DNA of 64,000 nucleotides, from the NCBI GenBank assembly GCA_004565275.1, contig SDOX01000001.1, forward strand, positions 1,002,947-1,066,946. The letters are read 5' to 3'. Source of the DNA: Nannochloropsis salina CCMP1776. Its lineage: Eukaryota; Sar; Eustigmatophyceae; Eustigmatales; Monodopsidaceae. The notes below the pieces were generated by a model. That model was given only the letters and a program-made list of their open reading frames with translations. It was not told where the DNA came from and ran no database searches. The translations under genes were made by a program, and so were the position numbers. Of this stretch, positions 7,271 to 45,334 are shown one piece after another. Numbering within the stretch: position 1 is the stretch's first letter; every line of letters starts with the position of its first letter.

Positions 7271-7989
7271 GAGTAGCGCTCAAACTTTCGTAAGGAATCT
7301 ATTTTTTTTGTGTCTGAGTTCCTTGTTTTTGAAGCCGTCGTTTACCCGAATTGGGGCAAGTACACCCTCAAAGGCATAAAATGTGGCTATGATTGTTTCC
7401 TGTCAAAGTAAAATGTCGTGTAAGTTTGTTAATTTCCAGGGAAGGACAGGGTGTACATGGGGAAGCTTTATCACGTGTGCATACCGCAGACAAGAGGGGG
7501 ACGCTGTCAAGCTGACTACAATGTGCCGTCATTGCCTCAGTTCGACTTTCCGGCCACAAGGCGCGTATAAAGGTCGACAAATATCATTCTACTTATTTCC
7601 TAGCTAGCTGCAGTGTCTCATCCATGTTCTCGCCATAGCGACACGTAGTGTCGGCATGTCAAATTGACAAGAAGTATCTTTTCAAAAACCGTTTAAATTT
7701 TCAAAAAATCAAAAAAAATGGCGCTGGCGTCGTTCCTCTAGGTGTCGTGTGTACGCTAGCTGTACTCTTACTTCAGCTATTCACTGCCCAGCGCTGCGCT
7801 TTAATGCGACACGAGTGACAAGTTATGTCCTTTAGGGAACGTGATACCGGATATATTCAAAGAGAAACGACATTTGGCTAAGCCATTCTCAAAGGACAGC
7901 CAGATGGTAACCTTTGTGCCTTACGAATTGCTCTTGCTTCGCATTTTTCACAGTATTGTCGCATTCTTATTCTTATTTTCCATAAATAT
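7271..7989. promoter_or_regulatory. Shared intergenic promoter region of the two kinase genes
   Basis: 719 bp between two divergently transcribed paralogous kinases, so both promoters must lie here. I see A/T-rich stretches (e.g. 7690-7720) but no motif I would name. Short reading frames at 7368-7607 look like noise. Confidence 0.5.
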
Positions 7990-10900: not shown

Positions 10901-11925
10901 TCAGTTTTGTCCTTACTTGCTGTCATTCTACGATGCATTCGCAGACTTTAAATCCTCACGTGTGTGTTTAGTGTACGAATTTATGTGAGTAATGAGACGT
11001 GGTAGGACGAAGGATAAAGTGAACTAAAGGCATCTTCCCTTATTGAGGGGTGTCGATGGGTTTCTCGCCGCTTTGACACTTCGTTAAGACGCGTGGTGAC
11101 TAATTTTCGATTCCTATCTTCATTCTATGTCTTTTAACTAGGGACGGAGGCTCGCTAGAAGACTTGGTGCGGGCGGGCGGCTTCCGTGACGAAGATTTTC
11201 TCGCCGATGTCGCCTACAATGTCTTGCGGGGCTTGCACTACCTTCATGAGCGGCATATGATTCACCGGGATGTGAAGCCTGGAAATTTGCTGATATCCTC
11301 GGATGGCTTTGTCAAGATAGGCGATTTTGGCCTGGCCGTGTCTCTAGACGTCGCGCAGGATCAAGTGCAAGGGACTCAGCGGTATATCGCCCCAGAGAGG
11401 CTTGAGAATGAAACAGACCAGCTTAGCCCCAAAGCGGATATCTGGAGTTTTGGCCTCTCCCTGTGGGCATTGGCTGAAGGAAAGTTTCCATACGAGGAGG
11501 CGGTGGGCGATGAATTCGACCTGCGGATGGCAATCGTGAACCAAGAGCTGGAGATATCTGAGCATGATTTCTCGCCTAATTTCCGTGAATTTGTGTCTTT
11601 GTGTTTGAAAAAAAATCCTGATGAACGATGGAGCGCGGAGGAACTGCTCGATCACCCTTTTATTACTACCAAGGCAAGCGTACATCTGAAAGAGGCGGAG
11701 CTTTTGCAAATATGTGAGGCGATGAAGACCTATCTGGTAGAAAACCACAATCATGCTGTCTTTTCGCACCAAATGATTCGCCGGCTAGCGGAGGAGTTGA
11801 GACTGGACGAGGCTTTCGTGGAGCACACAGTTAGGGAGCAGCTTGCGGGTATCCCCTACGCTATGGAGACACCGAGGGTACCGAATAAGTTGTGGGCGAA
11901 TTTCAGAAAGGGGTGGTTCCGGTAA
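7990..11925 (+). CDS. MAP kinase kinase-like protein kinase, divergent paralogue
   Basis: Three exons in phase: 7990-10080, 10185-10984, 11142-11925, giving 1,224 residues. A long Ser/Glu-rich front (1-680) precedes the kinase. The Gly-loop ELGAGNGGAVFK ends exon 1, then VALKK (K710), helix-C E726, an insert of about 200 residues (735-935), CPYLLSFYDAF, IHRDVKPGN (HRD 1005-1007) and DFG 1025-1027. The first intron falls right after the loop's FK and the insert sits where it does in the neighbour, so the two are paralogues. The C-terminus repeats the shared helical motif as MIRRLAEELRLDEAFVEHTV. The activation loop (SLDVAQDQVQGTQRYIAPER) has only one Ser and one Thr and lacks the MAP2K S/T-x5-S/T pair, so regulation probably differs. 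A second in-frame ATG at 8023 is an alternative start. Confidence 0.88.
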
Positions 11926-15263: not shown

Positions 15264-15528
15264 TTGTGGGCTCCCTGACTACTTGGAGCCAGGCTGTAAG
15301 TGCAGCATTTCGACAAGAGCAAAGCAGGGAAAAGAGAAGCTACCAAGCAATTTTTAGTGCCTGAGCGTGATGAACCAAGTATTCTTGTCTATCAAATGGA
15401 AAGAAAAACTTTGGATTATTCCAAATTTAACAATGCAGAGGAAAGATTCTTTCGGCATCCAGGTGACGCGTACCTATCATCTCCTTGATACTTTTTCTCG
15501 CGACAGGCACATCAATACCACGCGGACT

Positions 15529-18500
15529 ATGCCCCCAGGTGGGGAGAACCTAGCTGGGGCCGCGGTCGATGAAGGTGGCGGCAGTGCTGAGACAGGGGGA
15601 GGTCAAGGAGGAAATGAAACTGCATTCTTCGGGCGTGACCCTAGCGTCAACGTAGGAGATGGCGAAATGTTACCATGCGAGCAACAAGACAAAAGGTACC
15701 TTATGCTTGTATTATAATCCGGACGTAAGAATTGATTGCAGGGGTAAAATGATGTGAGGTACTGACGACTCTTTTACATCTGACCAATCTTCTCGTGGAC
15801 GTTAATCTCGCACGCCGTCGCTTAGGGAGGGTGGGGCGTGCCAGGACGAGAAGGACCAGAAGGTTGAAACACATATCTCGTATGTTTTATCCCCTCCGGT
15901 GCATCATGCGTTCGTGGATTGGCTTGCCAACTCGCCTGAGAGGTAAATGAGATGGCTGGAAAAAGCCTTGAGGGGAAAGCAAGGGACGGCGTCTTCGGTT
16001 CGCGCCGCTCGCTCCTTTCACTTCTCTCTAGAGACGTCCCAGATAGGCTCTTTTTCTCTTCAATTTGATCCTGTTGACATTGTTTTTTCATCTATTCTTC
16101 CATGTTGTTTCTATGCCTGACCACAGTCATTACCGTTGCGATGTTGAAGGCCAGCACCGGGCGTTGAAGCTCGTGGAAGGGATGGTGAAGAGGCACATGG
16201 GCCTGGGCTATTCCCGACGTCTGGGCATGGAGGTGAGCTCGACAAAGACGAATGCTTGCGGCCATATCGATGACGAGGAAATGGGGTGGTGGGTTGACAT
16301 GTTTTTTCACAGTTGTGTGCATGAAATGGCTCAGGAACGTCCTGGGCATTGCTCGGTGAAGATAAGGTGTCGCAGCGGTTGAAGCGGACCCGTTGATGTT
16401 ATACCTGGCTCTTGTTTCCGTGATTCCAGAACGTTCAACGTGCGGTCCGAACGGTTGGGAGCGTCTTCTGGATCTCTCTTGCCAGTCCTGGCCCTGACGC
16501 CATGCCTCATTCCTCCGAATACTCGGTTTCCTTTCTTCCCCTCCTCCTTCTTTTGACCCTAGATGATGCAGCTCAGCATGAAAGAGTACCGTGGTGATAT
16601 GATGATCGGCTTGGCCGGTCGCATTCGGAAGCTATCCACAGATACGGGAGACTTCCGGGCCTTCCTACGGTCCGTCCTAAATCCCTTTTGCTGGCCTCCC
16701 TCTCGTTTCCCCCCTTAGGGCGTCCTCTCACCTCCCACCCTCTCTCCTTCTCCTTGCTTGGTGCAGCTTCCTCGAACTGGACGACGTCTTCTCTGACCAG
16801 GCAGAGGACGGCGAGACTCGTCCCCGTCGCCGACGGAACCTGGAAAGCCCATCTCCTTCTCTCCCTCCATTTTCTCCCCCCTCCTCCTCGTCACCTACCC
16901 TTGATGGAGCCCAGGGGGAGTATCCAATCCGCAGTGCCCTTACTCCGACCGGTCGGACGAAAGAGGGTGGGAAAGTTGGAGGGGCTCAGGGAAGGACATC
17001 CCTGGGGAAGCAGGGAACGGGAGAGAAGAAGCAGAAGGAGTGGGAGAAAGGGGCAGGGGCCAGGGACTTCTCGGCGGCAGAGAGGGAAGTTGCAGAGCAA
17101 ATGGCATCGCCAAGCAGGGGAGAAGACCCCATCAGGGCTGAGTACGGCAAGGCATTAAAAGTCGGTGAAAAAGACATGGACAAGAAGAGGAAGGAGATGG
17201 AGCAAAGGGAGGTAAGTAGGCCATTCGTAACACAGGCTTGAGGAGACGCTACGGTTGAAATGAAGAGCACACTTGGTCATTTGCCATCGATCAACGCTCC
17301 TCCATTTCTTACTCCCTGGCTCGTCCGTTTCGCCTTTCCACTCTTTCACATGGGTTTAAATCCTACGTTGACAGATATCAGCCGCGAAACTACTACTGAC
17401 GGTCATGACGGCCGATTTGGTTGCAGAATTCACCGAATGGTATTGCGGGGGAGGAGGGAGAGGAAAATGCCAAAAGAAGAAGGGCCGAACGATTTCAGGA
17501 GAGAGAAGAAAGCGCGCGCTTCTGTCTCATATCTAGCGGTGAACTTTTTCCATTCCCTTGCAGGCTGGTACGGGAGCGGCCCATGCTTACACCTGTGACG
17601 ATTCGCAGCTATATTCGGCAACCGGGTGTGATCATAAGGAAACTTGCGGCGGTCTTTGGGGACCAAAAGTACGGAAGAGGGAGAAAGGCGTAGGGGGAGA
17701 GAGTTATAAGGAGACTAGGACTTGGGGCTCGGGCAGTTTGCTGGCTGTTTGCTCCGAATGAAGACAGGGCTGGGCTGTGAAGTTGGTCGTTGGAAGAATG
17801 GCAGAAAAGCTGGGAAATGCTTAAGTGTGACCTCTATTCCCCTCCCCCTTCCACAGATATACACCGCGAGGGAAAGAGGAGTTCAGGGCCTACGTGTTCA
17901 GAAACCACAAGGCTCTGTACTATGCGGTGAGCGAGGAGGATTAGAAAAGGGAGGGGGTGAATAAGACAAGTGAAGGCACGGAAGGGAATGAGGCGGACGC
18001 AATGCCCGTTTCACCAGAGCATAACGTGATTCACTTTCCATACCTGGGCCTGTCATGCATACAGTCTAAAATGGGAACTTTCATGGATAAGGCAGCTTGG
18101 AAATATTTCGCTCTCTTTCTCGAGGTAAGGCTCCGTCAACAAGGACTACCCTCCTTCCTCGCCTGATCGCATTTCAAAGATTCACTTCATCATTTTCTAT
18201 GCCTTCTCGCTCTTTTCTACGCTCGCAGATACCCTTGGCCCAAAATTTGTGGGCTCAAAATGACTCAGTACTACGTTCAAGCCTCAAAGAGAAAGAGGAA
18301 AGGTAAAAAGTTGAGAAGGGAGAAATGCCTAGCAGATTTCCGGAAACGAAAGACGAATTACCACAGGTCACCTATAGGCTCATTGGCTCTCTCTCAACAG
18401 CAATTCAACGCCATCGGCTCCTGCGGATACGACAGAAGGCGATGTTGAAATGTCACACCAGAATCCGGGAGAGGAGGATCAAGGAGACGTAAGAGGGAGG

Positions 18501-21500
18501 AAAAGAGGAAAGAGTCCCTTGAATTTAAAAAGGCGCGCATTCGCTCATTCGTGTGGACAAGGGTGAAAGAGAATGGTGGAGGCGACTTACCACGTTGTAA
18601 TGCGACAAGGGCAACATGTTGCCTCCATCTCTCCTGACCTTCGTCACCCTCGACCTTTCCCCCTGCTTCGTCTCCCACCCCCCTCCCCACTCACGCGCAG
18701 GCGTCTGTCCTCCCCGCCGTAGCAGTGCTCCCAAATCAAGAGCTCGCTCTCCAAGCTACGGAGGCCAAGATAATCATGGGAGGGGAAAGAAGAAAGGATG
18801 AGAAGCAGCAAGAAGGTGTCGGTACAAATTTTCGAGAAGCAGCCGGGGTTAAAGGTACAGACAGAAAGGAAGCGAATGAGAGAGAAGAATACAGGAAAGA
18901 AAGAGAAGCAAGGAAGGTCCGCGAGGAAGGCAATGAGGAGGGGCTGGGAAAAGGAAGATGCAATGCTGTCGCTGATGGAACGCTTGACATGGTATGGGAA
19001 AAGGGGAACAAAGGAGGATTTCACATTGATTTGGACGAGGTAGAAGACGAGACCGAGGAAGAGGAAAATGACGGTAATGTGACAACTAATCATATTAGAG
19101 ACAGTTGCAGGGACTTCTTGGAACATGAGCGGTTGTCCCGAGAAATTCAGGGTACTGACAAGGACAAAGGACCCCATGAAGATATAAGTGCCACTGAAAG
19201 AGAAGAATATAATCCGTCAGCCTTTGAAATGATACGAAATAGTTCCCTCGGTGATAAGGATGGAGGTAATGGCAAAATAGCAGACGAGGGAAGGAGAGAA
19301 GAAGCTCGGTTGGATTCTGGAGGGGATGGAGGGGTCGGGGGCGGGGAGGTAAGGATAGAAGGAGATGTTTCTGCCTACAGATGGAACGTTGGAGCAAATA
19401 TCAGAGGAGGAGATATGGAGCTGGAATTGCCGACAGGAGCTGCCGCGGATGCGGGGTTGGAAAACTATTTGGACGACCCGGGAAGTGAGTGGGAAAGCAG
19501 TGATGGTAGGCAGAAGACGCGTGATCGACGCAGGGAAAGAGGATTCGATGTGGCACGTAGTAACAACTGTTATGGAGAGGGAAGTGATCAAGGGGGGGTT
19601 GTGAGGGGAACGGGAGGGAGCATGGACAGTTTTGCGGCGGAAAAAAAGCCTGAGAAGGAAGAGGGGAGATTGGAACCAGAAATGGCTGATGGTAAAGGAG
19701 AGAGAGTGGGTGGAGACGCTGTCATTGGAGGGGTCTTGTCGATCATGGTAAAGAAATATTTCAGGCTGTACCTACGACAGTCTGGCCTGGTCCGTTATAA
19801 ATGGTACCGGTACGTTCGAATATCATATGCGAGAGGGAGTGTCTTGTCAGGAAGGTTGTAGGTACGGGAAGATCACAGACGGGACTGGGGGAAGAGATGG
19901 GAGACCACCCAGTGTGTAGGACTGTCATATACCCAGATATGCTACAAATCATCACCTTACCTTATTTTTTCTGGGGCCCTCAGGTACACTCAGATGTGTG
20001 ATGGCTTGCTCACTGCCACAATGCGGTCGACACGAAGCGGGAATTCGTGGCAGCCAGAAAGTTTGCAAACGAAAGAAGAGGTAGGCTTAGAGAAAAGGAG
20101 GAGGGATGGCTCGAAAAGCATCGTTGGAGAGGGAAGGAGACAATTTTCACCTCTCGCCGGGGGCACACATTAACTTCATAAGACCTTGAATCCTTGCGTT
20201 CTGAAACCCCCTCTAATCTCTTTGCCCTCCCTCCTTTTCCTGGTCCCAACCAGCTTTTCCATTGGCTCAAGCATCACCTGCCGCAATTCATGGCGAAGAT
20301 CCCTCAGCAGGGTCCTCGTCGGGAGGCAGCTCGCCTACTCCTACTTTTTCTGGGAATTTCTTCGCCTTATGCGGCTCCACTGCTAGATGATGCGAGGATG
20401 GAAAAAGAATTGGGGACGCTTTCCAGCGTAGATTCCACAACCCCCGCGTCGGGAAAGCCATCCAGAGGGCCTTCGGGGGACTTGTTAACCAAAGCGACTG
20501 CTGAAGTCTCAGCCAACAATTTTCACTCGCAAAACCCGGGGGTTGCTAAGGCGTCTTCTTCTGTCCCGTTTCTCTCTCCTCCCTCACCATCCTTCGCTTC
20601 GGCGGATCCCCCTTTGCCTGGGCCCCCCCTCGCACCTCCCCTATCTACGACGCCTCCTTTAACCTTCGATTCAAGAGAGAGTGAAGCGGTGGGGGGCAAC
20701 TCAGTCATACCTCAATTTCTTCTCCTGCAGTTCGAGCACCATTTGTGGCATTTCTGTGGAATGCCTTCGATCAAAGCCAGGGATTTCGCCCGGGCCGTGG
20801 ATGAAGCAGTGGCCTGTTGGTACCAGCGAAGGCGGAACGTAAGGCGGGAAGAAGTGGAAGTGGTAGAAGGAGGGAGCGACCAGAGGTGGCCCCAAATCAG
20901 GGTCTGGGGCGCTTAAATGCTCCCAAAAATACTTAACGGACTCCTCTTTTTTTTCCTTGTGTATTTCTTAATAGTCCCAGCCTGGAAATACAAGTTTACC
21001 AGCCCTTTCTCTCAGGCAACTTTTCGAAAGCGTGCGAGAGCACTGGCAGGAGATTGCGCTGGGAGTGGTCACAATCAGGTGGGAGAGAGAGGAACGGAGG
21101 GCAAGCAATCTAACCGTCGACTTGGAATGGAATCTATGTCTCATACCAGAATTCGCTTTTATTTTTATCACATAATTCACAGGAGCAAGAAGGCTTGTGA
21201 CTCCTTCATGGAGTTTCTTGGCACCGGAACGTACGGAGAGGCAGGGAGGAAAGCAGCTTCGTCCTACTTGCAATGGAAGAACGCGTCCGCACGTCGAGAT
21301 AAAGTAAGTAGTGGTGGTGCAGCTTCTGTAGGAGATGCACTTGGAAGGGAAGAAGAACGGCCGAGGAAGTGGCGAGACTCTAGGCTATTGGCCCCAGTGG
21401 CTGTTGACCGGGGTTATCAGTTCCGTTCAATTCCAACAATAATTTCGAGAGAGGGTTTCGGTCGCTCTGCGGCTCCAGCCATTCTCTTGGCCGGGCTTGG

Positions 21501-24500
21501 GTGCATTCCAGCGCAGCTGACTCACGTGACTTATCCCATTCATCTCCTCTTACAGTCTGTATCCTATCTAGGGGAAGACTGGGAAGGACAAGGCTCACGC
21601 TTGACAGGCTCGACCAGGAAGCCCGATGCTGCCCCGTTTCCCCCTTCATCAGCTGCTGTTTTGCCCTCTACTTCGTCCGGGCATTCACTAGCACACGCTT
21701 CTCTTCTGTTGTCGGCATCTGTTCTTTCTCTGCCCTCCCTTTACGCCCCTCCAGCTGCTCTGTCTGCGTCGCATGTTCCAAGTCTCTCTCTTACTTCAAT
21801 TCGCCCTCCTGCTGAAACTTCCCTCCCCCCATTGGGCGGGCCTGCCTATGATTTGTTCTCACATAGAAGAACAGACCAAGATGGAGAGGCAGGGGGAAGG
21901 GCTGAATGGAATGGAAATTCGACAGAGGACGCAAGAATAAGTGTAGGAAGCAGGCAAGAAGAGGGCGGGAGAGGAAGTAGGGAGGAGAACGAAAGCGGAG
22001 CTGAGGGATGCAGAGAGCGTGATAGGCTGAGAAGATACGGGCAGGAGGAGCGGGGGAAAGGGGGAGGAGGTGGCGATGGAAAGTGTTTCGAGAACGTGAG
22101 GAGAGAAGAGGAACGGCCTCAATGGCTGAGTCAAGATGACGAGGCGGAAGTTCGTGAGGAAGCTCCAGGAGCAGCATTAAGCAGGGCGTCGCTATCGGAA
22201 GTGATACACTTCCACGAGGAAACGGAGCACAGATTCACCTCAGATTCTAATCCTAGACAAGGTGAAAACGTTGCCGGGGAGAAGAGGAAGACGGCAATGG
22301 AAATGACGCATGCGCTGGGTGAAGGCCAAGCCAAAGTGATGAGGATTGAGAACCTCGGGGAAAGCGAGGATACGCCTCAGTCTTGGTGTCCTCCCCGCCT
22401 CAATGAAGGAAATCAAATGGATGACGAAGAAGAGGAAGAAAATATAATGGAGGAGGAGGTGAAGGATAAAGGAAGAGGGCAAGGGTCAGCGAAGCCTGTA
22501 GCTGAGGAGACTTCCAGCGGTGTAACCTTAGGAGCATCGGAGAAAGGAATTGAAATTGAGCGCCAAGAAGGAGCAAACGACAGGCAGAGGGAGACGCAGG
22601 AAGAGAAGGAGGACGATGTAGCTGATGGCATTAAGATTGCATTTCCGCTCAAAATCGTGGATGAAGCGGTGGCAAAACGCTTCCTGACAGCAGCTAGCGG
22701 AGAATTCGGGGGGGAGACTGCTGCAAGACAGCTTCAGAAGGTGGACAGAGTACTAGGTAGGTGTGAATACATGCAGAGCATTGCACAGAAGGGAAGGAAA
22801 GCGAGGGATGCTAGGACTGGCTACTGACTACTTTCAATTTCTTCCATGCCCTGAGAATAGCCATGACTCGGCAAGAGCTGGGGAAAGCTTCGAGGGTGCT
22901 GGGGCGCAGACGTCTGAGGAACTTCATTCGTAAATACGACGGCTTGTTCAGGTGGGTGACGGGGAGGACGAGGGTGCTGGTGGGATCCAAGGAAGGACAG
23001 GAGAGGAGTTGCAAAGAGGTTAAATTTCATCATCTTTCAATCTGATGGGTGGTGCCTCGTGGCTTTCACGGTTCAGGGATATGGCTTCCGACCTGGATTC
23101 CGCCTTTTGGAAGCGAAGCGAGGAGTGCGCAGACCAGAGGGGGGAGCAGTACCAACCAAGAGGAGAGGCGCGCGAGACATCGATTGCCAATAATGATGAC
23201 GACGGATTGAAGGGGGGCGAACGGGAAAGAAATGCGAAAAAAGTGGCGGCAGGAGGAAAGACCGAGGTAGAAGGACCAGGGGAGTGGCTTTCTGCCTACC
23301 ATCTCTTCAGTTCTCACCTGTTGAGGGACGTGGGGGAAGCGAAAATGAAGGAGGGAATGACCAAGTTTTTCCCTGCGGCTTCAAGCGACGTTACGAAATC
23401 CGAAGATGACAATGCAAATTGCTTATCAAACCCAGGCTTCGATGCGAGGCGGTCGTTGCCAGCCTCCCCTTCCTTCCTCTTTCAGCGTGAGGGAAGCCTG
23501 GTCCGCGCATTGTTGAAGAGAGGAAGCGACGTCTTACCGGCCGTATTACTGCAGGGCCCGCCTAGCGAGGATGAGGAAGAGGAAGAGGAAGAGGAGGACG
23601 GGATGGAAGAGGATAGGGAGGATGAGGAATTGGACGAGTGCTGCAAAGAAGAATATGAAGAGGAAGAGGAGGAGGAAGACGAAGAGGAAGAGTCGCAGCT
23701 AGCGCGGGCTTTCTTGTGTGCCTCTCTCTCCCCTTCGGAAAGTCGATCACGATTCTCTCTTTCTTACGAATTAAATGAAATGGGGAAAGAAAGGAACGCC
23801 AGTAGGAACAGCGGATGTGCGGAGAAAGGGAAGGAAGCAATCAAAGCGTCGAGTCCAATCTTGACGCGAGATCTGGCCAGGGACTTGAGAGATTTTCTCA
23901 AGGGTGATGAACGGCAGCTAGCATTGCTAGAGGTGAGTGCTCAAAATTGAAGAATTGAGCGAAAGAGTTGCCTGTGTAATAACTATCTCTCGTCTATGCT
24001 CTTATTGACAGGAAGCCATGGAGGACCTTCGAACAAGAGTCCAGGAAAGCGGATCGTTTTCATCCTCCTGCGGTACGTTCTCCATCTCTTATTCTTCTTG
24101 TAATCTTCGTGATCTTGTGATTGCATACGTTGGCTTCCATCTCCTTTGCAATTTTTGTCGCTCCAGTCCTATTTGTCCCCGCCGTCCTCTCGCCCTCCCC
24201 TCATTCATTCGTCCTGGTCACGTTTCCAGAACTAGGCTCTTTCCTCCGTCGACACGCGCGATTAGTCGCAGCACGGCCCGCAAATGTGGAAGCAGCGTGG
24301 CAGAAACTCTTTGCTTTTGTGGGACTCGAGTCAATTCCTTTGCAGGGACGACGCACGTGAGTAGGAAGGTGGCGGCGGAGATAGGAGAAGAAAGGAAAGA
24401 GGAGACGTATGGTTTCTTCAACATTCGCATGGGTTTGGATTGGGTGGTCCTGCGCTTTTTTGTCGAGAAATGTTTGTTAGTCCAACTAATGGTTTCGCGG

Positions 24501-27500
24501 CATGAGGGACGACTTATTTTTCCCTTCCCCGCACCCTTCCCGCCCGTCAAAAGGCCCCCACTCTCGTCGGGCTCGACCTCTTCATCCTCATCGGTTTGCT
24601 CTTCTTTGTCGTCGTCTTCGAATTCGGGACAGAGTTTCCTGTTGTGGTTGTTCAAGACGGGTCATGTAAGTCCTATCTTTGATTTCTCCTGGTTTTCCTC
24701 GCGGTTCATTCTATTTCTATCCTGTAGCCTTTTCTAGCGCATTGAGCCTTTTCTGGGGGTCAGAGGAAAATTAACCTTTGTATTATTTACCTGGGCTTTC
24801 CCTCCTCCTCGATTCTAGACTACTTCGCACGTGAAAGCTGAAAAAAATGTCAGGCTTCTTGAACGTGTAATTCGCCGTGCCCTGCGGCTGTCAGGCATCC
24901 GTGAGCGATTGCCCGATGGTAGGTGTATTAACTTCAACAAGAAGGATTAAGGGAAGGAAAGTTTGGCACAAATGGAACATCATTAAATCCAAGACCTCAT
25001 TTTCACTTTTTCTGTTGTACCGGCAGGCCTTGGTTCCCGCGCTGCTCTTCGAAGCATAATTCAGAGACCACGACGGCAGAAGCGGTAGGTTCCATTGTCG
25101 ACTGTCTTGATCATTAGGTGTCGCAGTATCTTCGATTTTCCTCCTTCTGCTTACCTTTGTGTCCTACATCTCTTGACCTCAACGTCTCTTCCATCAGACT
25201 GGAGGGAGGTGTTGCCAAAATGCGGAAACCAACCTTGGAGGTCCTGGAGGACGACATCCGCGCCATGCGCTCGGCGGAACTCACCCTTTATTGGTACGAA
25301 AGAGGGCTAGAGAGGTATATGTGTAGAGCATGAAAATGTAAAAATATGGGAATGAGGGGCTTCACTGATTATTCCACGTTTGACAGGCAACACTTTAAGG
25401 ACTATCTCGGTCTCAACCCTGCCTCAGCTTTCAGTAACTCTCGAAGGGGTCGAAGAAGTAGGTCATTACCCCTTCTCTTTTCTACTTTCTCTCTCTTTCT
25501 GCGTCTCGATCGTTTCCTCCCCATATGCTACATATCAGAATATTCTGCCTTTTCCTTTCTTCAAGTACTCGGATTCAAAACACAATGCTGTCTAATGACA
25601 CACAGGCTCGTTGGTCCGCTCTTCCTCTTCACCTACTTTGTCGATCCTTTCTTCAGAGGCGACATGGTACGAAAAGGCTGTCGGAGGCTTCATTGGTCTT
25701 AAAATAGATCATCGCGCCCAGCTCAAGGTACGCCGTTCAGGTCGTTGGAGAAAGAGGCTTAGATACAGACGCATTCACATCTTGTCCGTCTTTATTCTTG
25801 TAAATGACGGGACGGTTTCGCGGCTCGCCTTTTTAATCACTTTTTTTTTTTTAAATTAAGAGCCGGATCGAACGAGGAGGTGTTACCTCTGGTACGGCGG
25901 GGAACTATCTCCGCATGCTTTGTAGCTTACTGAGCCGGCATCTTAAGCGCACCGTGGATGGAGGCCGAGGGTGAGGAAGAGGAAAGGAGGGAAGGAATCT
26001 AAGGCGAGACGTGGGGGGAGAAGTCTTTACTTAGAGCTTGCCTGAGTATTGCATACCAATAATGTCAGTTGTTCCTTTATTATTTTTAAACTGAGAGATC
26101 TTTGTGTGAGCCCAAGATAAGAACTTCAAATCGTGCCGCTCCTCAACCTGTACTTCTGTCTCTTGGGATTGCCTCCGCTCAGGGCCAACATTCAAGCCGA
26201 GCTTAGCTTCGTGTCCTGGACGGCAGTCTCAGCTTTCTTGAAGAAATACGAGGAAACGGTTCGACAGTCTCTACGAGTAGAACACCGAGGTATGGGAATC
26301 AGAGCCGGCAGTAAGAGGGGGACGGGGGATGGAGAGAGGACGGCGGGAAAGAAGAGTGAGGACCCTGAGGACAACAGCACGGCTATTGCAGCTTCCTGCG
26401 GCTTAGCTCCCTGAAGTGAATTTATCTATTCATTCTCACTTCGTCCTTTCCCCTCCTCTTTTTTAAATTACTAAGGAGCACGCCTCGGCCTGGAGCACCT
26501 CATTGCCTTCATCCAGGCCAGAAACCTTGACTCAAGCGCCTCCGAACACCCCTCACCCCATTTCTCCCGCCCGCCCCTCCGACCTGCTTCCACCATTCCT
26601 GCATTCAGCGATGGGATGGCTGAGGCCCTACGTGACTACATTTGCTCATCCCGAGGCGTATCAAGCCTGACAAGTACGGCACGCTCCTTCCCTGTAGATA
26701 TCGTTTTTTGCTCTCCTGTGCCGAATTATTTCTCTCTCCTTGATTTTTCAATTCGCTGGACTTAGCTTTCATTCACTTTTCTATTTTTGAAAGGCCGAAG
26801 CTGCGTAGCATACGTATCAACCTTGCTTGGGCAGGTGGCAAGGGATAAAAGGACTCCTGGCAGGTCCAAGACACTCTTCGAGGCAAGGAGGAGGGGCAGC
26901 GTTTGGGTTAGGCTTCAGTAGAGATGTTATGTATATGCACAGCTCTATGACAGTAATTTCATGTTATTGATTCTTCGGTGCTTGTGTTGTCGCCTAATTA
27001 TTTCTTATGTTCACATATATCGTGATCCTTCACCAGAACTGGACGGATGTCGTCTCGTTCCTTCGAAAGCACGATAAATTATTATCGTCTGCTCTGGCCA
27101 AAAAGCAACAGCACACCAACATTCAACTCGGTTTTGACGCTTTGCGTGGCTATCTGGAAGAAAGAGGTACGGTTGAGATTAGACGAGATATGGAGGGAAA
27201 AATATCTTAATGCTGTACTTTAAACCATTAATGAATAGAATGACTGAAAATGATTCGATGGAAACAATTCCTGAAATTTACTGCAAGCAGGCATTAGCTT
27301 TTGTAGAGGAGTCATCCGTCAGGGATGCAAGCGCGAAGCCGTAGAAGAGGGCGAGGATGGCTTGCAAGAGGAAGAGATAAATGAAGAGGAAGAGGATGAT
27401 CAAAATACACATGATGGCGCCGCTTTCCTTTCACGATTCAGGCACAAGAGGAGGAGAATGCGGCGATCCTCCCTGTCGTCTATGCATCCAGGAATGTTTA

Positions 27501-27981
27501 CGCAAAAGATGTGCGATAGCTTCGCCAGTTGGGTGTGTAAAAATGAGCAACGGGTAAGGAGAATTGTAGTTTGGAAAGGCATCGGGGCGGGTAGACATTT
27601 ATAACGCAAAGAGTGCAGAGAAAAATCCAGAAAAAAAGCCCTCCTTTAGCATAATACATCGCTCCGAACCTCAATGGATACTGCAGGGCCCCAAAATGGC
27701 GGCATCCTACGCGGTAATGATGACAAGTCTCTTTCAGACAGTCAAAGAGCAGGTCGAGAAGGAAAATAATGAAACTGCCAAGAATTTGCAGCTTTCATCT
27801 TGGAAGGCTGTCCGAAGTTTCATGGCGGCCCATGGGGTACGTCGAAAAAGGAAGGCGGGCCGACATGGCGTATACGGTTTTGAAATTCCCGCAGTGAACA
27901 CAGCTCATTGATTAAATATTTACTATGTCGCAGAAATCGTCCTGTCTCCATTGTGACCCCTCAAACAATCAGCTCTTCTAA
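15529..27981 (+). CDS. Giant 35-exon gene, 2,458-residue helical-repeat protein of unknown function
   Basis: I can thread 35 GT-AG exons with every phase consistent (7,377 nt): 15529-15695, 15826-15942, 16127-16232, 16563-16669, 16767-17211, 17375-17439, 17564-17668, 17857-17926, 18065-18124, 18229-18302, 18401-18488, 18701-19809, 19984-20080, 20254-20838, 20981-21078, 21183-21303, 21556-22756, 22861-22951, 23077-23932, 24012-24072, 24230-24356, 24554-24665, 24819-24918, 25027-25084, 25198-25314, 25387-25457, 25606-25727, 25861-25970, 26183-26289, 26476-26673, 26794-26834, 27037-27166, 27291-27553, 27687-27836, 27934-27981. A short motif with a hydrophobic triad recurs more than 20 times, e.g. 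HAFVDWLANSPE, DFRAFLRFLEL, EFTEWLVRERP, RNFIRKYDGLF, AVSAFLKKYEETV, DVVSFLRKHDKLL, AVRSFMAAHGK. Acidic, low-complexity linkers separate the blocks in the large exons (18701, 21556, 23077). No signal peptide, clear membrane span or catalytic motif is seen. The FLKKYE/FLRKHDK units resemble the last helix of SPX domains, but no complete SPX domain is visible. The frame stays open upstream to about 15370, so the start could be earlier. Confidence 0.75.
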
Positions 27982-28745
27982 GTCCTTTACCCTCCATATG
28001 TTTACGGCAGGTAAACTTTACTGCCACGCTGTCCAGACGGAACGGCTCGGTGCAATGCGCATATCGATTGTTACAGAAGTTTCTGGCCACAGACTCGCCT
28101 GACCACTTGTAAGGAATGTATGTGGGCGTGGCCTGCAACAAAACCGCGTGAAGAATTACAAGAACGTCGAGTTTTGTTGTATTGAAAATAATATGCATAC
28201 ATTATTACTTAAACGTGCTCTCGAGGAAACGTAGCCTAAGCTGAGCGCTAAGATTATGCATGTACAAAGAAAATGAAATGGAAGAAAGAAGGAAGGAAGT
28301 GGAGAGAAACGAGTAAAGTACGGTAGAATGTGTAGGAAATGACTAATGAAAAGACATTCTTTGAGTCATGTCTAAATTAGACTTGCGACCGAGAAGCCCA
28401 TATGCGCGATCGAGAAGCCTATATGCGCCGTGAATTAAAGAAACAAGCGCAAAATCAACTCCATTCTTGTGTCCGCTCAACTCAGAGTTTCGTAGAATTT
28501 TTTAATTTGAGTTCCGCTTTAATCCGTTCTAACTCAAAACAGGCTACATACACATAGAGGCAGCCTATCAAACTGCCGTATGGGCGCACACGTCGTCTAA
28601 GCTAGGCTATGCCAAAAATCAAGTATTCTTCCTCAACTCGCATCCCGCGGGAAAAAGGGGGAACTTAAGGACACGTGCTCCCGCTTGTGAATGCAGCGGA
28701 ACGTTCAGTCGCTCTGCTATTTTAAAACCCAAAATGATACATTTT
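27982..28745. other. Intergenic, convergent
   Basis: About 0.76 kb between the giant gene's stop and the glucanase stop. It holds both 3' ends and otherwise nothing I can support; short reading frames on both strands show no domain. Confidence 0.5.
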
Positions 28746-30545
28746 TCACACTGTATTACTAGTTGCAAGCCTCCGTCCCTTGTCACATTTGGGATTGGCA
28801 TAAGCGCCGGGGCTGATGCAATACTGGTCTGATCCTTTTACTGTAATAAACGTGGGGTGGGGCTGCACCTTGGCAAGCAAAGCCAATTTTTTGGGCATAG
28901 GAGTCAGAAAGTCGTAATCTAAGAGGCCACCTGTGTCGCCACTGGAGGCGTGGGAATTGGGTAGGGCAGTTAAAATCATGGTAGGTAGTTTAGGTTAAAA
29001 TTGCAATGCTATCTATGCTACACATCAAAAACACTAGGATGTAGGCTTTAAGTCATACCTGTTAGGGTTCAAACACCAATAGAAGGTGTCCTCGAGGCAC
29101 TCATCGACTAGAAATTTGGCAAAGCTGTCCTGCCAGATTTTATCCTGATTCTCATATCGTCCACCCCATTCACCCACAACAACAGCACGGTCGGTTTGCT
29201 CCTCTACGAAAGCCCACTGTTTCTTCCAAATGTCAGGCATGTTGTCAGGAAAATTTTTCGCTTCAAAGTAGGGTTGCACAAAGGCATCAGGGCCGTAGAC
29301 ATGAGGAGAGTATACAAGCTTCTTGTTCAACGCGTCGGAGCCCAACTCGATAGGAAACTCCTGCACCCCCTCCAGGTCTCCTCCCCACCACTTGTTGTTC
29401 TTATCGAGCTTATGATGCTTGGCTGATGCCAGTTGTGTCCCCTCAACGAAGACTAGGCCCTTATATTGCGGATGCTTCTTGTAGAGGTAAGTTGCCAACT
29501 CCTCAGCCGCTGTGTTCCAGTCCGTCTTGGCTTTTCCACTGCCCCATGTGGCGACTCCGTGGGGCTCATTCTTCAAATCAATGGCAAACAAATTCCAGCG
29601 GTCCCCAAAGGCTGTTAACAGATTGTCCCACGCCTCCTTCACATCGTCCATAGAGTATTTGTCGTCATACCAGAGCTCAGGGATGAAATCCTCGTTCAAC
29701 CGATGCATGTCCAGCATGATGAGAATGCCATATTCGGCTGCTTTGTCGATGATGTTTCCAATCAGCTCTAGGACTGTCAAATCATGCAACTCCTTCTCAA
29801 TTGTATTAGCATTCACCTTTTTATTGGGTTCCAAGGCCAATGCAGTCGAAAAGGGAAGTCGCACGGCGTTGAAGCTCTCATTTCGCAGAAATCCAAAGAT
29901 CTGATCGCGTGTCACAGACCACAGGCCGTGAGGCACTACGCGTTCAATGAAAATAATGAAACGAATAGTGGATGATGGACATGATCAGAAAGAAACGCAG
30001 AAATGAGGTGCAAATGTGGTCCTTGTGGTTCTCAACCGCGTGAGATGGTAATGCCGAGATACAAGAGGCAATTTCTGGTGATGAAACGAATATTCTAAAT
30101 AAATCTAAGACCACGGTAAATTAGATACACGTAGGATGAAAGGACATGAAATGACATATGTTTCAAAGCTTATCCTAGGTCCCTGACTCGTTGCCTTCAC
30201 TTGAGCTATGCAGGCCATGTCCGGACATTAATAAATGAACTTACCTTCATTAGGGGTCTCAAAACCAAAGTAGGACACGCCCTTGAGGTGAAAAGGCTGT
30301 CCATTCAACAATATCTCTCCGCCTTCTGAAGTCCAATCAAGAGATGCAACACACAGGTCTGCAGGCGTGGAGACCTTCGAGGACCCAGAAGCCTTCGCAA
30401 GCTGGCGACTAGCGCGGAGACGAGGGTTCGTATTGACAAGCCCTCCCATGGTGTCACCCGCGTTTGAGGAAGACGGACTTGCCGTCAACAGGAGAAATGT
30501 GACGATAACTGAGCTTATTGCGTCCATGGAGCGATGAAAAAGCAT
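28746..30545 (-). CDS. Secreted GH5 glycoside hydrolase (endo-beta-1,4-glucanase type)
   Basis: Retaining beta-glycanase of family GH5, probably secreted to the wall or medium. Exons 30545-30245, 29935-29059 and 28941-28746 join in phase to 457 residues. A signal peptide (VIVTFLLLTASPSSSNA) is followed by NPRLRASRQL and then the start of the barrel, GQPFHLKGVSYFGFE. FAIDLKNEPHG carries the acid/base glutamate (E224) and VVVGEWGGRYENQ the nucleophile (E356). NAVRLPFS, HVYGPDAF and FYWCLNPN|SGDTGGLL are further GH5 landmarks, the last restored exactly across intron 2, which supports the junction. The tail after TFITVKGSDQYC is short and has no obvious binding module. Family and catalytic pair are clear; cellulose versus another beta-glucan as substrate is inference. 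Confidence 0.93.
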
Positions 30546-31723: not shown

Positions 31724-33271
31724 TCACCCAATCGACGTACCTAGGACGTCGGGCGCTGTCATCGATCGACGATGTTCCTCAAAAGCCCTTCGACTGGCCC
31801 GCCGCGCAATAAGCGAAGCACCGGCACATGCCCAGAGGACCCTGTCCCGCGGGTCGATTTGACACGTGCTCTCTTTCCCTGATTGAGCCCCCTTTCCCTC
31901 GCTTCCGCGCTCGCTCCTCTCTGCTTTCACAGCTCCTCCATGTGCCTGCTCTTGCATGGCTAGATGTGACCAATGGAGCAGGACCCCCGTCGTGCCCGCT
32001 AAGATATCTCCCAAACCACCTGACCGCCGCCGCGCCCCTTCCTCTGTCACCACCAGCCACCGCTCTCGATCAGCCACGATGTCCTCCCTCCCCTTCAGAC
32101 ATACAGTCACTCTGCCTGCCTTTCCGCCCAACGCCTTGGCCACGGCAATCACATCAGTATGCTGGAAAGGGACGGCAGGAGGAGTCGCCTCTGCTACGGA
32201 GGCTCCTGTCAGTCCGGCCTGTAGGCGCGCGAACTCGATCAGGTTGGGGGTGACCACCACGCCGCCTCCATCATCGCCTTCCGGGTAGTCTTGCAGGATC
32301 TCAGGGGAGTGCGCCACCAGCCAGAGCCCGTCGGCGTCGATCACCAGCGGGAGCGCGTGTGTCTTGGCCTCGACAAGGATGCGCCGCGTCGCCTCCATGA
32401 TCCACGGGTCCCGTCCCAGCCCCGGCCCCACCACCAGCACGTGGAGCTTGGGGAAAAAGGAGGTGACACGCTCGACCATCCGGGCAACCTGCTTCTCCTT
32501 CGCTTTGTGTTCGGCTGAGCGTGCCGCGTCCGAGCACCCGTCCTCCTCGCCCTCCAGGTCCCCTGCGAATCCCACGCCTAAGCCCTTGGCCGAGTACACC
32601 GGCGTGACCATGAGCTCTGGACTGTACGCCTTGAGAGGACCCGAGGCTTCTTCCGCCGTGAAGATGTAGCAGAGATCGCCCCCGACTTTCAAGCCGGCCA
32701 TTCCTGCGTAAAAGGGGGCCCCCGTAAAGTCTGCGGAGCCGCCTAGAAGCCCAACCCTCCCCATCTGTCCTTTCCGAGCTGTGTGCGTAAGCGCGGGAAT
32801 CAAACGCTTGATAGTGCCTATGTCAGATCCGGCAGAGTGGTTGAGGCACAAAGCTCTACCGGGCGCGATAGGAGAGGAGCTTCCACCGGCATCCGACTGA
32901 GAATAACTGGCTGCGTTATGAATGCTAGCGGCCGCGACACCTTGGCCTCGCCCATCAGATAATGCAGCGCCCCGTCCGCTGCTACCGCTTTTAGACGACA
33001 TAGAACCAAAAAACGTCGTAAAGGCTGTGATAGCGAGAGGCAAGAATCGAAGGGAAACCCCCCGTTTTGTGGAATGAGACAGCACCGGTAAAAAGGTAGG
33101 AGGTCGAAGAAAAGGAGGAGGTGGCATCAACCAGGGAGCCCCGGTCGCTTTGCTTGGTGGTTCCAGGTGGGTGTCAGATGCTGTGGGATTGTAGAGTCGG
33201 ATAGGGTGCGGAAAGATGTTGGGAAAGCGTCCCAAAAAAGGGCGCACTACAGAGAGGCCGTCGGGCTTCAA
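31724..33271 (-). CDS. ATP/ADP-dependent NAD(P)HX dehydratase
   Basis: Repair enzyme of the YjeF C-terminal/CARKD family, which dehydrates S-NAD(P)HX back to NAD(P)H using a nucleotide; ribokinase-like fold. One exon, 515 residues from the longest start. Family blocks in order: GRVGLLGGSADFTGAPFYAG (about 168), KVGGDLCYIFTAEEA, VLVVGPGLGRDPW, LPLVIDADGLWLV, VVTPNLIEFARL, RVTVCLKGREDIV and GGLGDILAGTTG (D422, catalytic GD) near the end. The first 100 or so residues are Pro/Ser/Arg-rich, fit an organelle targeting peptide and include other Met codons (e.g. the start of MSSKSGSS). No epimerase (YjeF_N) domain is attached. Head to head with UTP6, 274 bp apart. Confidence 0.92.
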   Translation of the reverse strand: MKPDGLSVVRPFLGRFPNIFPHPIRLYNPTASDTHLEPPSKATGAPWLMPPPPFLRPPTFLPVLSHSTKRGVSLRFLPLAITAFTTFFGSMSSKSGSSGRGAALSDGRGQGVAAASIHNAASYSQSDAGGSSSPIAPGRALCLNHSAGSDIGTIKRLIPALTHTARKGQMGRVGLLGGSADFTGAPFYAGMAGLKVGGDLCYIFTAEEASGPLKAYSPELMVTPVYSAKGLGVGFAGDLEGEEDGCSDAARSAEHKAKEKQVARMVERVTSFFPKLHVLVVGPGLGRDPWIMEATRRILVEAKTHALPLVIDADGLWLVAHSPEILQDYPEGDDGGGVVVTPNLIEFARLQAGLTGASVAEATPPAVPFQHTDVIAVAKALGGKAGRVTVCLKGREDIVADRERWLVVTEEGARRRSGGLGDILAGTTGVLLHWSHLAMQEQAHGGAVKAERSERGSEGKGAQSGKESTCQIDPRDRVLWACAGASLIARRASRRAFEEHRRSMTAPDVLGTSIG

Positions 33272-33545
33272 TTCTCACGTCACGTGCCGTTTCCGGGCTG
33301 CTCAGCGAGTTGCGATGGCTGGGAGCCTCGCACCTCATTCTGGACTATGGCAACAATTGGTTAACTTTGTGCAACAAATTTCCACAGGGCAATCACAGCT
33401 CACCTTACAGTGCGTCCCTGCACGCAAATGATGCAATAATCCTGAGCGTTTAACGCGTCCGCAAAGAGAACCAGCAGGCCAGCCGAGGCCCCCTACCTGC
33501 CGACACTGCTTCTCAGGCCACACATTGTGATCCGCACCTTTCAGT

Positions 33546-35982
33546 ATGGCGGACGCAGTCTACCAAGCTCTGGACCGGATGCTTCCGGCTCTGGAGGATT
33601 TGCAAATACGTGGGCTTTTCACAGCGGTTCGTGTCAGAGATGGGTGTATGCTCGGGTCTCACAACCTCCTGGTGCTTCGAGATCCTACTGTTTTGTTTTT
33701 CATCTGGACTTTTCATGACGCAGAAGTATTGTTGAAACTTTTGTTATCCTGTCTTATTGCCCTGGAGGCTCAACGATTACTGATTATCGACCATTTTCTT
33801 CATATCCACGTGTTTCGCTTATCTGCAGGAGGAGGTCCGCGCAATAGCTGGCAAACGTAGGGACTTTGAGTTCCTTCTGCGTCGTCGCACGGCTCGCAAA
33901 AATGACTTCCTCCGATACATCACACACGAGCTGAACCTGGAGGAGCTTCGTCGCCTTCGGAAGCATAAGGCTGGTCTTGTCAAGACCTCGCTGAGCGACC
34001 ACGCAGGTAGGGGACTCATCCATTTTATCTTCGAACGAGCCCTGCGCAAGTTTCGGGGTGACTTGGAGCTCTGGCTTCAATACCTGGACTACTGCGAGTC
34101 CACCGGCTCCCATAAAGCCCACTCCCGCGCCCTCGCCCAAGCCCTGCAGCTCTTCCCTCGCACTGCCGGCCTCTGGATCCGCGCAGCTTCCTACGAGTTC
34201 TTCGAGCGCGCATCCCCGCCCGCCGCGCGCGTGCTCATGCAGCGAGGTCTGCGCTTGAATGCCAGTGATTCGGCCTTGCTGTGGACGCAGTATTTCAAAT
34301 TGGAAGTCCTGTACGTGATGAAGCTGAAGGGACGGAGAACGGCGTTGGGGTTGGAGGGGGAGGAGAGGGACGAAAAGGGGGAGGAAGGGGGGGGGAAAGA
34401 GGGTGTGCAGCTACCCCTTTTGGAAGGTGAGGAGGGAGGAGTGGAGGAAATGAGGGAGGAAGGGACAGAGGAGGACCCCAGAGACCGAAGTGTGCGGGCA
34501 GTCCTGGCGGGCGCTGTCCCGCGGGTGGTGTACTTGGCGGCGATCAAGGCGAGGCCACGAGACCTGGACATGCGTCTCTCCTTTCTGAGGGCGCTGGAGG
34601 AGGCGGAGACCCTGGAGGGGGGACGGGCAGGCGCGGAGAGCGGGCAAACGTGGGGCCCGCTGGTGGAGGAGGTCCTGCAGGGGGTGGAGGAGGCGTTCGG
34701 AGCGGCGGATGCCGCCTGGGCGAGGGCGAGGCACGTGCTGGCGGGGGTCGGGGGCTTGAGAGGGGTAGACGAGATGACAAGGAAGAGGAGAAAGAACGCC
34801 GGGAAGGAGGGAGCTCGGAGCCCTGCCTTGGGCGGCAGCGCTAGGAAGAGGGGGCGCTGGTCCTCGCTCTCCTTGCCGTCGGGGGGGGAATCGGAGGCAG
34901 TCGAAGCTTGGAAAGAGAGCCTGAGGGACGGCCCTCGGAGGTGTTTGCAGGCGCTGGAGACTGGTCTTGGGAGGGTCGCCGATATCAAGGAGGGCAAGGA
35001 GGCGGAGAAGATGTGGCACTACTACCTTCGAGGCCTCTGCGAGCTCCTCCAGGCCCCCGCGTCTGTCCTCCGGGTCGCTTTTCCCCAGGCCCAGGCTGCA
35101 TTGAGCGCGAATCAGGGGGCAAGCCTCCCGGTTCCCGCCATGTATTTGAGGTGGGCGGCCTTGTGGGTGCCGGCGACGGTACTGTCGTCGCAGACAGAAG
35201 GTGAGGGGCAAGGGGAGGGTTGGAAGGAGGAGGGGGGGAGGACGGACGTGGGCGAAGCACGACGTATTCTGGCCAGGGGAGTTGAGGGACACCAAGACAA
35301 TGCCCGTTTGTGGGAGGCGAGATTACGGGCGGAAGCTTGGGGGCAAGGGGGAAGGGTGGAGGAGGTGTTTGGGATGGCGCAGCGGGCACTGGGACCGACG
35401 GCGGGGATCGATGGCAGAGAGGAGAAGGAGGAAGGCGGGGGAGAGGCACGAAGGTATGCGGTTGCAGGCTGCTGGTATGTGTATTTGGAATGGTTGGTGC
35501 AGCAAGGGGAGACAGAACGGGAGAAGGCGGGTGAGGGAGGGGACACCGACAGCAGCAGCGACGAGGAGGATGAGGACGAGGAGGAGGGCGGGGCGACAAT
35601 GGAAGCAAATTCACGCAAGGTAGAGAAGGCCCTGGAACAAGCCTTGATCAGCACGCGAGGCTTAGGACGCGTGGCAATTTGTGAGCTTTGGCATCGATAC
35701 ACAGGCCTGACGGGGCTGCAGAGGGCCTTGTCTGCAATGGGAGAGGGAGGGATAGAGGAGGGGGAGGCTATGGCAGCCTTATGCCAGCGCGCTATGCGTG
35801 GAGATCGTAGCGGACTCACAGTCGCGTGGTTTGAGGCAGCCCTGGCGTTTTGCGGGCGAGTAAGAGCACAACAGGCAGCTGCGCTGTGGGATGAGTACGA
35901 AGCATTTGAACGTGCTCAAGGTAGACATCGGGCAGCTAACAATGTGCGGTGGCGTAGAGCAAAAGCAATGGGCGAAGAATAG
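33546..35982 (+). CDS. UTP6: UTP6-like U3 snoRNP/SSU processome protein
   Basis: Nucleolar HAT-repeat protein of the UTP-B complex, needed for 18S rRNA maturation. Exons 33546-33626 and 33829-35982 give 744 residues. The N-terminus matches the UTP6 pattern: ALDRMLPALEDLQIRGLFT, then EVRAIAGKRRDFEFLLRRR, FLRYITHELNLEELRRLRK and HFIFERALRKFRGDLELWLQ. HAT-type helices follow (LWIRAASYEFFE, LLWTQYFKLEVLYVMKLKG). The middle and C-terminal parts keep HAT-like features (WHYYLRGLCELL, YVYLEWLVQQG, LWHRYTGLTG) but contain very G/E-rich inserts (about 34340-34480, 35200-35600). These make it longer than typical UTP6 (about 600 residues). They are GC-rich and look like recent low-complexity growth. Confidence 0.9.
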
Positions 35983-36517
35983 CGGCCTTGAATAAGTGAA
36001 AAGAATTGTTTTGCTCTCGGTCGTGCAACAGCGTATCAGCTTACCTTGAGCACACACCAAACACTCAAGGATTAAGTTTTGACTTGATTTCTTCTAGTAC
36101 TTCCACAGCCAATTTATTTCAAATAAGAAAAAGGACAGACTGATGAAAGGGGGAAAGAGGAGATTGAACAAAGGACACAGATTTTTTATTCCTGCTCCCG
36201 TGCAGTCGCCGAGTTTATTTGTTCCACAGGCTTGTCTGTTGTGCTGTATACTCGTCTTGTGACTCTGACAACTGTCCGTGGTCGCGTGCCTTGGTGCACA
36301 ACGTGTCGACCTGTGTCAACCCGTGACAATCACACTTTTTGCAGAAGGCCGTGGTCGCCGGTGTGTGAAGGGGTGTGTTGTTGTTTACTTGCTCCGTGTA
36401 TGTGGGGGAGCGTGCGTGCTACGCGTATGTCAGCAACCTAGTTGAATTTTCTCCTCCTCGTGACTACAATCAGGCTTAACAATTTCTGTCGCGTATGGAT
36501 ACGACCAAGAGAACAGA
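35983..36517. other. Intergenic, tandem orientation
   Basis: About 0.53 kb with the 3' end of UTP6 and the promoter of the next gene. A 69-codon frame at 36232-36441 has no support. Confidence 0.45.
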
Positions 36518-41891: not shown

Positions 41892-41964
41892 GACTCCCAG
41901 CGAGCCCAGCTGACGACTCCCAGCCCAACCTCAAATGCCTCAGACACACACATAGGTGGGACAC
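41892..41964. promoter_or_regulatory. Very short bidirectional promoter region
   Basis: Only 73 bp separate the start codons of the DDHD phospholipase (minus) and the DUF423 gene (plus), so core promoters or 5' UTRs must overlap the coding regions or each other. No named motif is seen. Confidence 0.45.
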
Positions 41965-44609: not shown

Positions 44610-45334
44610 TCTGGGATATTACCTCTTGTCGAGAAAGTGAAGTAGGTAATATTTCTCTGTGCGTGATACATGGTTGATGAGGAAGGGTGGAGGAGGTGGA
44701 CCGTGAGGCCTACTTGTAGGTTGTACAAAACGCGTGCGGCCATCCATGTATACACTTTATCTATTTCGCCAAATTTTGCAAGAGCAGGGAAGCAGTTGGG
44801 CATTCTTCATTCCGGTCTCGCACGAGTCGTGCACTAAAGGCTGTTCTTGTTTGAAGTGCCAATGTTACTCAGCGTCGAGCGCACAGAAGAAGGGATTGCA
44901 CGGGTCTCGGCGATGACCCGGGTCTTCGGAATTCCGGGCCAAGAAAGGCCTCGATACTCAGCCGTGCCAACAAACAAATGCAAATTTCCTCAATTGCCGG
45001 GCGATGGTGCGCTTCATGACTCGAGATGGAGGCCAATATCAACACGCGATTTCTGGATGGACAACTGTGTCTATAAGGCTGGAAAAAACGTTCGTGTCAA
45101 TTATTCTAAGCACACCAAAAGTTGTTTAAAGGGTTGGAGATGATCTACTCCGTTTCTTTTTTATTTATCTCTTATTTTTAGCTGCCACGTATTTAAATTT
45201 ATATCAATCTGAATTTATATCAATCATTTATTTGTTATGAGACACTTTGCAAGGGAGACCAATGGGGAATGATGAAGCAGAAAAAAAAGGCAGACTTGGC
45301 GAAGAGTTCTTTCGGCTTTCTCCCCTCTCACTTG
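44610..45334. other. Intergenic, tandem minus genes
   Basis: About 0.7 kb: PIG-X-like promoter and 3' flank of the oxygenase. A 98-codon plus frame (44847-45143) and an AT-rich run with a repeated TTTATATCAAT element (45190-45230) are visible; neither is identified. Confidence 0.4.

Follow-up and report, generated by a model that had tools for sequence, protein, structure and literature searches.

A large gene of Nannochloropsis salina probably encoding about ten diverged four-helix modules, with possible kinship to the core-binding domain of tyrosine recombinases

The core-binding domain of tyrosine recombinases, which binds to the site of recombination, has a preserved architecture but a sequence far less conserved than that of the catalytic domain, and it occurs once per protein, or twice in a row in the RitA group (as set out in passages of PMC8138268). 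Eukaryotic proteins can also be built on recombinase sequence, as in the Crypton-derived DUF3504 genes of animals (KCTD1, ZMYM2–4, QRICH1 and WOC), which have lost most of the catalytic tetrad, and Cryptons themselves have been reported from oomycetes and a diatom (sections of PMC3212892). Large all-helical repeat proteins of another kind, the alpha-solenoids (PPR, OPR, TPR, HEAT and HAT), consist of contiguous two-helix repeats of ~30–40 amino acids (aa), and PPR and OPR proteins are frequent in algae and plants (according to parts of PMC13126933). Here we describe a large gene, predicted to encode 2,495 aa, in a 64,000-nucleotide stretch of the Nannochloropsis salina CCMP1776 genome (contig SDOX01000001.1, positions 1,002,947–1,066,946; the whole stretch is referred to as the window and all coordinates are positions within it).

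The product of this gene resembles each of these systems in part. Its unit of ~100 aa matches the Xer and phage core-binding domain (Phage_int_SAM) in size and, in one alignment, co-linearly over 83 profile columns (more weakly in others), and by eye the repeat helices end in the same F..[FW]L as those of XerC and XerD, but there are about ten copies here rather than one or two and no catalytic domain was found. The Crypton-derived genes keep a recombinase-like DUF3504 domain, whereas only a core-binding-like module is seen here, in repeated form, and Pfam DUF3504 has no match in the protein segments. Unlike the alpha-solenoid repeats, the unit has four helices and the linkers reach 383 aa, and there is no Pfam PPR, OPR, TPR, HEAT or HAT match in the same segments. 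The explanation we favour, to which we give a probability of roughly 40% as a whole, is that one large eukaryotic gene encodes a ~2,500-aa protein of about ten diverged four-helix modules set on low-complexity linkers, that the module would be most like the core-binding (SAM-like) half of tyrosine recombinases with the catalytic half absent, and that the protein would act as a multivalent scaffold whose modules, jointly more basic than the linkers, might hold on to DNA or to partner proteins at multiple sites. Such a protein may be nuclear and its linkers may be disordered.

The gene is real. An unsupervised dynamic-programming model of splicing and codon use, run over 15300–28700 with codon scores taken from nine long open reading frames (ORFs) of the window and splice weights from the general consensus, scored 450.8 on the plus strand, compared with 180.2 on the reverse strand and 26.6–91.0 for 12 shuffled sequences in which dinucleotide content was approximately kept. 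The first-pass annotation had fitted thirty-five exons in phase, and in our curated chain all 34 introns have GT–AG ends, lengths of 79–330 nucleotides (nt) and continuous phase throughout; donor sites have G at −1 in 26 cases and at +5 in 30, and retention of an intron breaks the frame or adds a stop in 33 of the 34.

15529..28112, plus strand: whole coding region, 35 exons, 2,495 aa (curated exon chain, unsupervised model and shuffles)
28011..28112, plus strand: revised last exon, completing helix D of the last module, d10 (picked by the unsupervised model)

The unsupervised model recovered 26 of the 35 curated exons exactly (28 starts and 31 ends), departing from the chain at exons 1, 4–7, 17, 18, 21 and 29 and adding a 21-nt exon at 24738. 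It should be noted that exons 4 and 5 were resolved by the peptides quoted in the first-pass annotation, against the unsupervised model, that exon 6 (17375–17439) came from runs with lower intron penalties (two of three settings) and is absent from the main run, and that exons 21 and 29 were resolved by our own reading of the repeat. Because their exons were partly chosen by hand, the copies d1, d2 and part of d6 described below are not entirely independent of the hypothesis of a repeat. The 5' end is ambiguous, as an in-frame ATG at 15433 would add 32 aa. The gene end proposed earlier, at 27981 and giving 2,458 aa, uses another last exon (KSSCLHCDPSNNQLF*), which is probably wrong; the unsupervised model picks the revised exon instead.

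The protein had been described earlier as carrying a short aromatic helix motif more than 20 times, often once per small exon. We found 34 matches to h..[FYW][LIVM] where 10.4 (standard deviation 2.9) were expected from local shuffles, a ratio of 3.3, and the ratios for 10 other long ORFs of the window were 0 to 1.9; the abundance of the motif is thus borne out. Its placing is borne out only in part, since 11 of the 29 exons of at most 70 aa contain exactly one motif and the other 18 do not (12 have none and six have two or more). The motif is not itself the repeat unit. A self-alignment in which the motif played no part (40 of 82 sequence windows were retained for hydrophobicity and the lack of strong residue bias) had eight of 752 pairs scoring at least 40, compared with a mean of 1.2 and a maximum of 4 in ten shuffles, and the top pair (score 57) joined aa 2153 onward in d8 with aa 2282 onward in d9. 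The unit is ~100 residues long with four helices, in place of the period of 35–45 residues suggested before. Our own first model, a two-helix unit of 45 aa, has been superseded by the four-helix unit: leave-one-out support was weak for many of the two-helix units, the PDB profile search was empty and the spacing test was marginal (0.032 for 25–32 residues).

Ten segments of 85–119 aa, cut by eye and aligned with default settings (alignment A5), make up 1,039 of the 2,495 residues and contain 31 of the 34 motifs. The helices are named from our reading of this alignment, with helix A ending in F..WL, a long helix B, helix C of the type SW..V.SFLRKH and helix D of the type A...L..FL. When each copy was scored with a model of the other nine, none of 500 shuffles of its own sequence scored as high for six copies, one did for three copies and two for one, with scores ranging from 4.5 (d7) to 36.8 bits (d9) and d8, d9 and d10 at 29–37; the tested copy took part in setting the alignment columns, and this gives it some advantage. 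With d1 and d2 removed, the number of shuffles reaching the real score was zero for d3, d6, d8, d9 and d10, one for d5, nine for d4 and 44 for d7, so that d4, and d7 even more so, are less secure than the other copies and their number is best given as 'about ten'. The copies are listed here with their leave-one-out results.

15890..16809, plus strand: d1, aa 78–180 (alignment A5; 7.7 bits, 1/500; exons 4 and 5 follow the earlier peptide)
17405..18270, plus strand: d2, aa 325–428 (the copy nearest to recombinase core-binding domains, hhalign probability 87)
19730..20391, plus strand: d3, aa 812–916 (21.3 bits, 0/500; 12.1 bits without d1 and d2)
20701..21243, plus strand: d4, aa 1020–1120, weaker (8.0 bits, 1/500; 3.2 bits, 9/500 without d1 and d2)
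22642..23140, plus strand: d5, aa 1503–1592, helix D weak (15.4 bits, 0/500; 8.5 bits, 1/500 without d1 and d2)
23567..23692, plus strand: GAG/GAA-rich tract encoding an acidic run in the d5–d6 linker (sequence repeat scan and exon chain)
23858..24348, plus strand: d6, aa 1832–1916, helix B short (21.0 bits, 0/500)
24621..25432, plus strand: d7, aa 1942–2056, least certain (4.5 bits, 2/500; 1.8 bits, 44/500 without d1 and d2)
25656..26543, plus strand: d8, aa 2082–2200 (29.5 bits, 0/500; best self-match is d9)
26601..27310, plus strand: d9, aa 2220–2331, helices C and D in exon 32 (36.8 bits, 0/500)
27488..28109, plus strand: d10, aa 2391–2495, reaching the C-terminus (32.7 bits, 0/500)

We note that helix A of d2 depends mostly on exon 6, and that the helix register of d4 is ambiguous, with the recombinase hidden Markov model (HMM) aligning to aa 1065–1137 instead. 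The pieces we folded with AlphaFold2 were half-modules, as no exon spans a whole one. Exon 32 by itself, which holds helices C and D of d9 (43 residues), gave a two-helix hairpin with a mean predicted local distance difference test score (pLDDT) of 73.9; a Foldseek search with this hairpin had no PDB match, and is uninformative at 43 residues. Exon 14 alone placed helices where C and D of d3 and A and B of d4 were expected, at low confidence (mean pLDDT 52.3), and was used for helix positions only. An exon-shuffling origin was rejected, as three of 24 intron alignment columns are common to two copies and none of these have the same phase.

The linkers range from 19 to 383 aa. Those at aa 429–811, 1121–1502 and 1593–1831 are acidic (net −38, −25 and −31, respectively), in keeping with the acidic linkers noted earlier, but three short linkers that separate the final domains carry a small positive charge (+1 to +5), with a high content of Ser, Pro, Gly, Thr, Gln or Asn. 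The summed net charge is +50 for the ten domains and −95 for the linkers. Altogether it is highly probable that the protein consists of about ten repeated modules, and the scaffold of repeated helices suggested in the first-pass annotation is well supported, with low-complexity linkers, by A5 and the leave-one-out results. With about ten modules of ~100 aa and linkers of such different lengths, beads on a string is a more fitting description of it than a continuous solenoid. Both the ten modules and the kinship considered below are held a little less firmly because the exon behind d2 is disputed and the support for d4 and d7 declines once d1 and d2 are removed.

The possible kinship with recombinases was investigated with a core-binding profile made from the XerC and XerD proteins of E. 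coli together with relatives found in viral contigs (83 sequences, reduced to 41 rows by length and duplicate filters), and the expectation (E) values for these profile comparisons refer to one comparison each. A5 matched this profile with a probability of 77 (E 2e-5) over its positions 17–101 of 117; without d2 the probability was 41 (E 2.8e-4, 81 columns), and without both d1 and d2 it was 39 (81 columns), with the alignment still co-linear over the whole domain. The A5 score was 31.3 (30.8–32.9 when realigned) and that of the core-binding domain of lambda Int itself was 43.8. None of 120 mixed, 60 UTP6 or 120 shuffled control sets, aligned with the MAFFT automatic setting, reached 25.5, and A5 scored 8.7–12.3, compared to 31.3, when matched with the profile reversed, with two catalytic pieces or with an N-terminal profile of DnaB. 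The relatives kept for lambda Int and for CI (80 each) are 95–100% identical to their queries, and single sequences were used for these two proteins instead. Under two other alignment settings the probability for the ten copies dropped to 12–13; in those runs, 60 control sets scored at most 15.3 compared with 21.6 for the real copies. Taken singly, d2 matched the profile with a probability of 87 (E 4e-6) in hhalign, and Pfam PF13102 (Phage_int_SAM_5) matched d2 at E 0.11 and 13.3 bits, below the gathering cut-off of 22.3.

A number of observations weigh against this kinship, including the drop just noted under other alignment settings. Circularly permuted copies reached 31.3 in one of 60 sets and 25.5 in five; the d2 match falls to a probability of 17 if its exon is read as in the unsupervised model; and the other nine copies singly gave at most 2.4, with segment 1066–1145 giving 8.7. 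The catalytic piece cat1 beat the core-binding profile in five of ten single segments (probability at most 5.9), and the kinship is also held less firmly because single segments match the catalytic piece as often. The core-binding HMM scored 4.4 bits against the whole protein, where the maximum of 200 shuffles was 4.3, and its best single stretch was exceeded by two of the 200. A5 compared with single sequences gave a probability of 22 for XerC, but 0.2 for XerD and 0.4 for lambda Int, and realigned leave-one-outs spanned 1.6 to 81, with three of ten dropping to 1.6–2.3. The PDB profile search listed no recombinase among its six chance-level matches, and no relatives were found in viral contigs (two queries), prokaryote genomes (one query) or phages by contig scans which rest on a few 8-residue patterns and reach close relatives only. 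Two of the ten domains are slightly acidic. Furthermore, the hypothesis was formed after the Pfam match at E 0.11 and by eye, and then tested, and the E of 2e-5 is not significant if corrected for some 20,000 families. We regard the kinship as supported but not proven and sensitive to alignment, with the chances falling just short of even.

The full recombinase HMM aligned to aa 313–390 (2.5 bits), 1065–1137 (1.1 bits) and 2387–2480 (−1.8 bits), all in its core-binding part, with only HMM positions 17–107 matched. A catalytic domain (the RKHRH pentad with its tyrosine nucleophile) was likewise not found with HMMs of the two catalytic pieces, neither of which matched the protein. If the kinship holds, a eukaryotic host might have captured a recombinase core-binding domain, for example from a DIRS-type element or a Crypton, without keeping the catalytic half, and expanded the domain to about ten copies on charged linkers to make a chromatin- or DNA-organising protein that differs from the domesticated recombinases of the papers cited here, but we consider this full scenario speculative and rather unlikely.

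The strongest competing explanation, and one whose chances also lie somewhat below even, is a new and perhaps lineage-specific scaffold of helical modules that binds proteins, in which the core-binding similarity reflects generic four-helix character. It fits with the failure of nine of the ten copies to match the recombinase profile singly and with the lack of any family above threshold in Pfam, NCBIfam and PDB searches, and UTP6 HAT windows exceed the other non-permuted controls (mean 11.0, maximum 20.3) and the circularly permuted copies average 18.9. However, none of the 300 non-permuted control sets reaches the A5 score, and leaving out d1 and d2 does not disturb the co-linearity of the alignment along the full domain. 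A tandem array of modules that bind DNA through a different fold (CUT or another lambda-repressor-like domain, for instance) was suggested by SATB1 CUT among the six PDB profile matches (profile positions 3–68 of 101), but its E of 0.45 is at chance level, single lambda CI gave a probability of 0.1 and there was no Pfam CUT match; we consider such an array very unlikely. The modules might also be divided between two or more adjacent genes. When both sides of 31 cuts were scored separately, the sums ranged from 33 below to 6 above the whole-region score, and the region can be divided in several places at little or no cost (+6.3 at 18000 and +6.2 at 24400) in a model that puts no charge on gene ends; nevertheless, phase is unbroken over all 34 introns and the cuts at 18000 and 24400 each have modules of this family to either side, and we think a division rather improbable.

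The first-pass annotation had also raised the possibility of degenerate SPX-like helices binding inositol pyrophosphates, and short local look-alikes such as FLRKHDK do occur. This look-alike is helix C of the repeat, however, and the SPX domain differs from the repeat in size, helix number and architecture: the SPX domain of Vtc2 has eight helices, and the authors' filter kept SPX domains that stood first and were 130 aa or longer (portions of PMC10167327). No segment has a Pfam SPX match at a limit of E 10 (HMMER filters discard most matches above about 0.1), and we consider the SPX reading extremely improbable.

The earlier statement that the protein belongs to no recognised family is upheld, as there was nothing above curated cut-offs in Pfam (whole protein) or NCBIfam (four segments) and no convincing match among PDB sequences (four segments and two profiles). 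Three segments compared with PHROGs gave two matches, at E 5e-4 and 0.35, both to families without known function; the first of these, the phage family phrog_10982, matches aa 1846–1899 in d6 (about 23900–24300) and may be a chance helical similarity. Several weak matches were set aside as chance or composition, including Pfam DUF3475 (E 0.016, from a contiguous frame including an intron), HTH_TANC1 (0.053), SR-25 (0.064), Pex19 (0.12), DndB (0.13), several Pfam families on the acidic run, and subunit C of DNA polymerase epsilon (PDB 6wjv, E 0.014), for which the matching stretch includes an acidic run; single-segment PDB matches at E of at least 0.39 were set aside likewise. Resemblances to RGS, LisH, FF, PAH and Sfi1 were dropped, as no segment had a Pfam match to any of them. 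Rfam at the gathering threshold and a tRNA scan were empty, and paper searches made without the organism name showed no description of this protein, which is weak evidence of absence.

Elsewhere in the window, the neighbouring genes identified by Pfam encode a GH5 cellulase (29034–29984, minus strand), an NAD(P)H-hydrate dehydratase (31724–33274, minus strand), a UTP6-like protein (33784–35982, plus strand), a protein with WWE and DDHD domains (39315–41930, minus strand) and PIG-X/PBN1 (42897–44618, minus strand). Protein kinase domains are found in two open frames (3209–7279, minus strand, and 11104–11925, plus strand), while an 856-aa open frame with hydrophobic stretches (36464–39034, plus strand) matches none of the Pfam families up to an E of 1. 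There is a tandem repeat at 2089–2467 (171 bp, 2.2 copies, 99% matches), and 33-bp tandem repeats at 61238–61299 and 61342–61435 lie in a stretch open on both strands. An assembly gap, the run of Ns at 56809–57717, produces an apparent dip in GC content and long open frames there.

Judged by the libraries we searched, the repeated module represents a new domain family, and its profile could be used to find relatives in other protists. If the kinship with recombinases is true, the DNA-binding domain of a mobile element would have been put to new use apart from its enzyme and amplified about tenfold. This would contrast with the recombinases described in the passages of PMC8138268 cited above, which have at most two core-binding domains, as in RitA, and with the domestications described in PMC3212892, which keep the recombinase-like DUF3504 domain.

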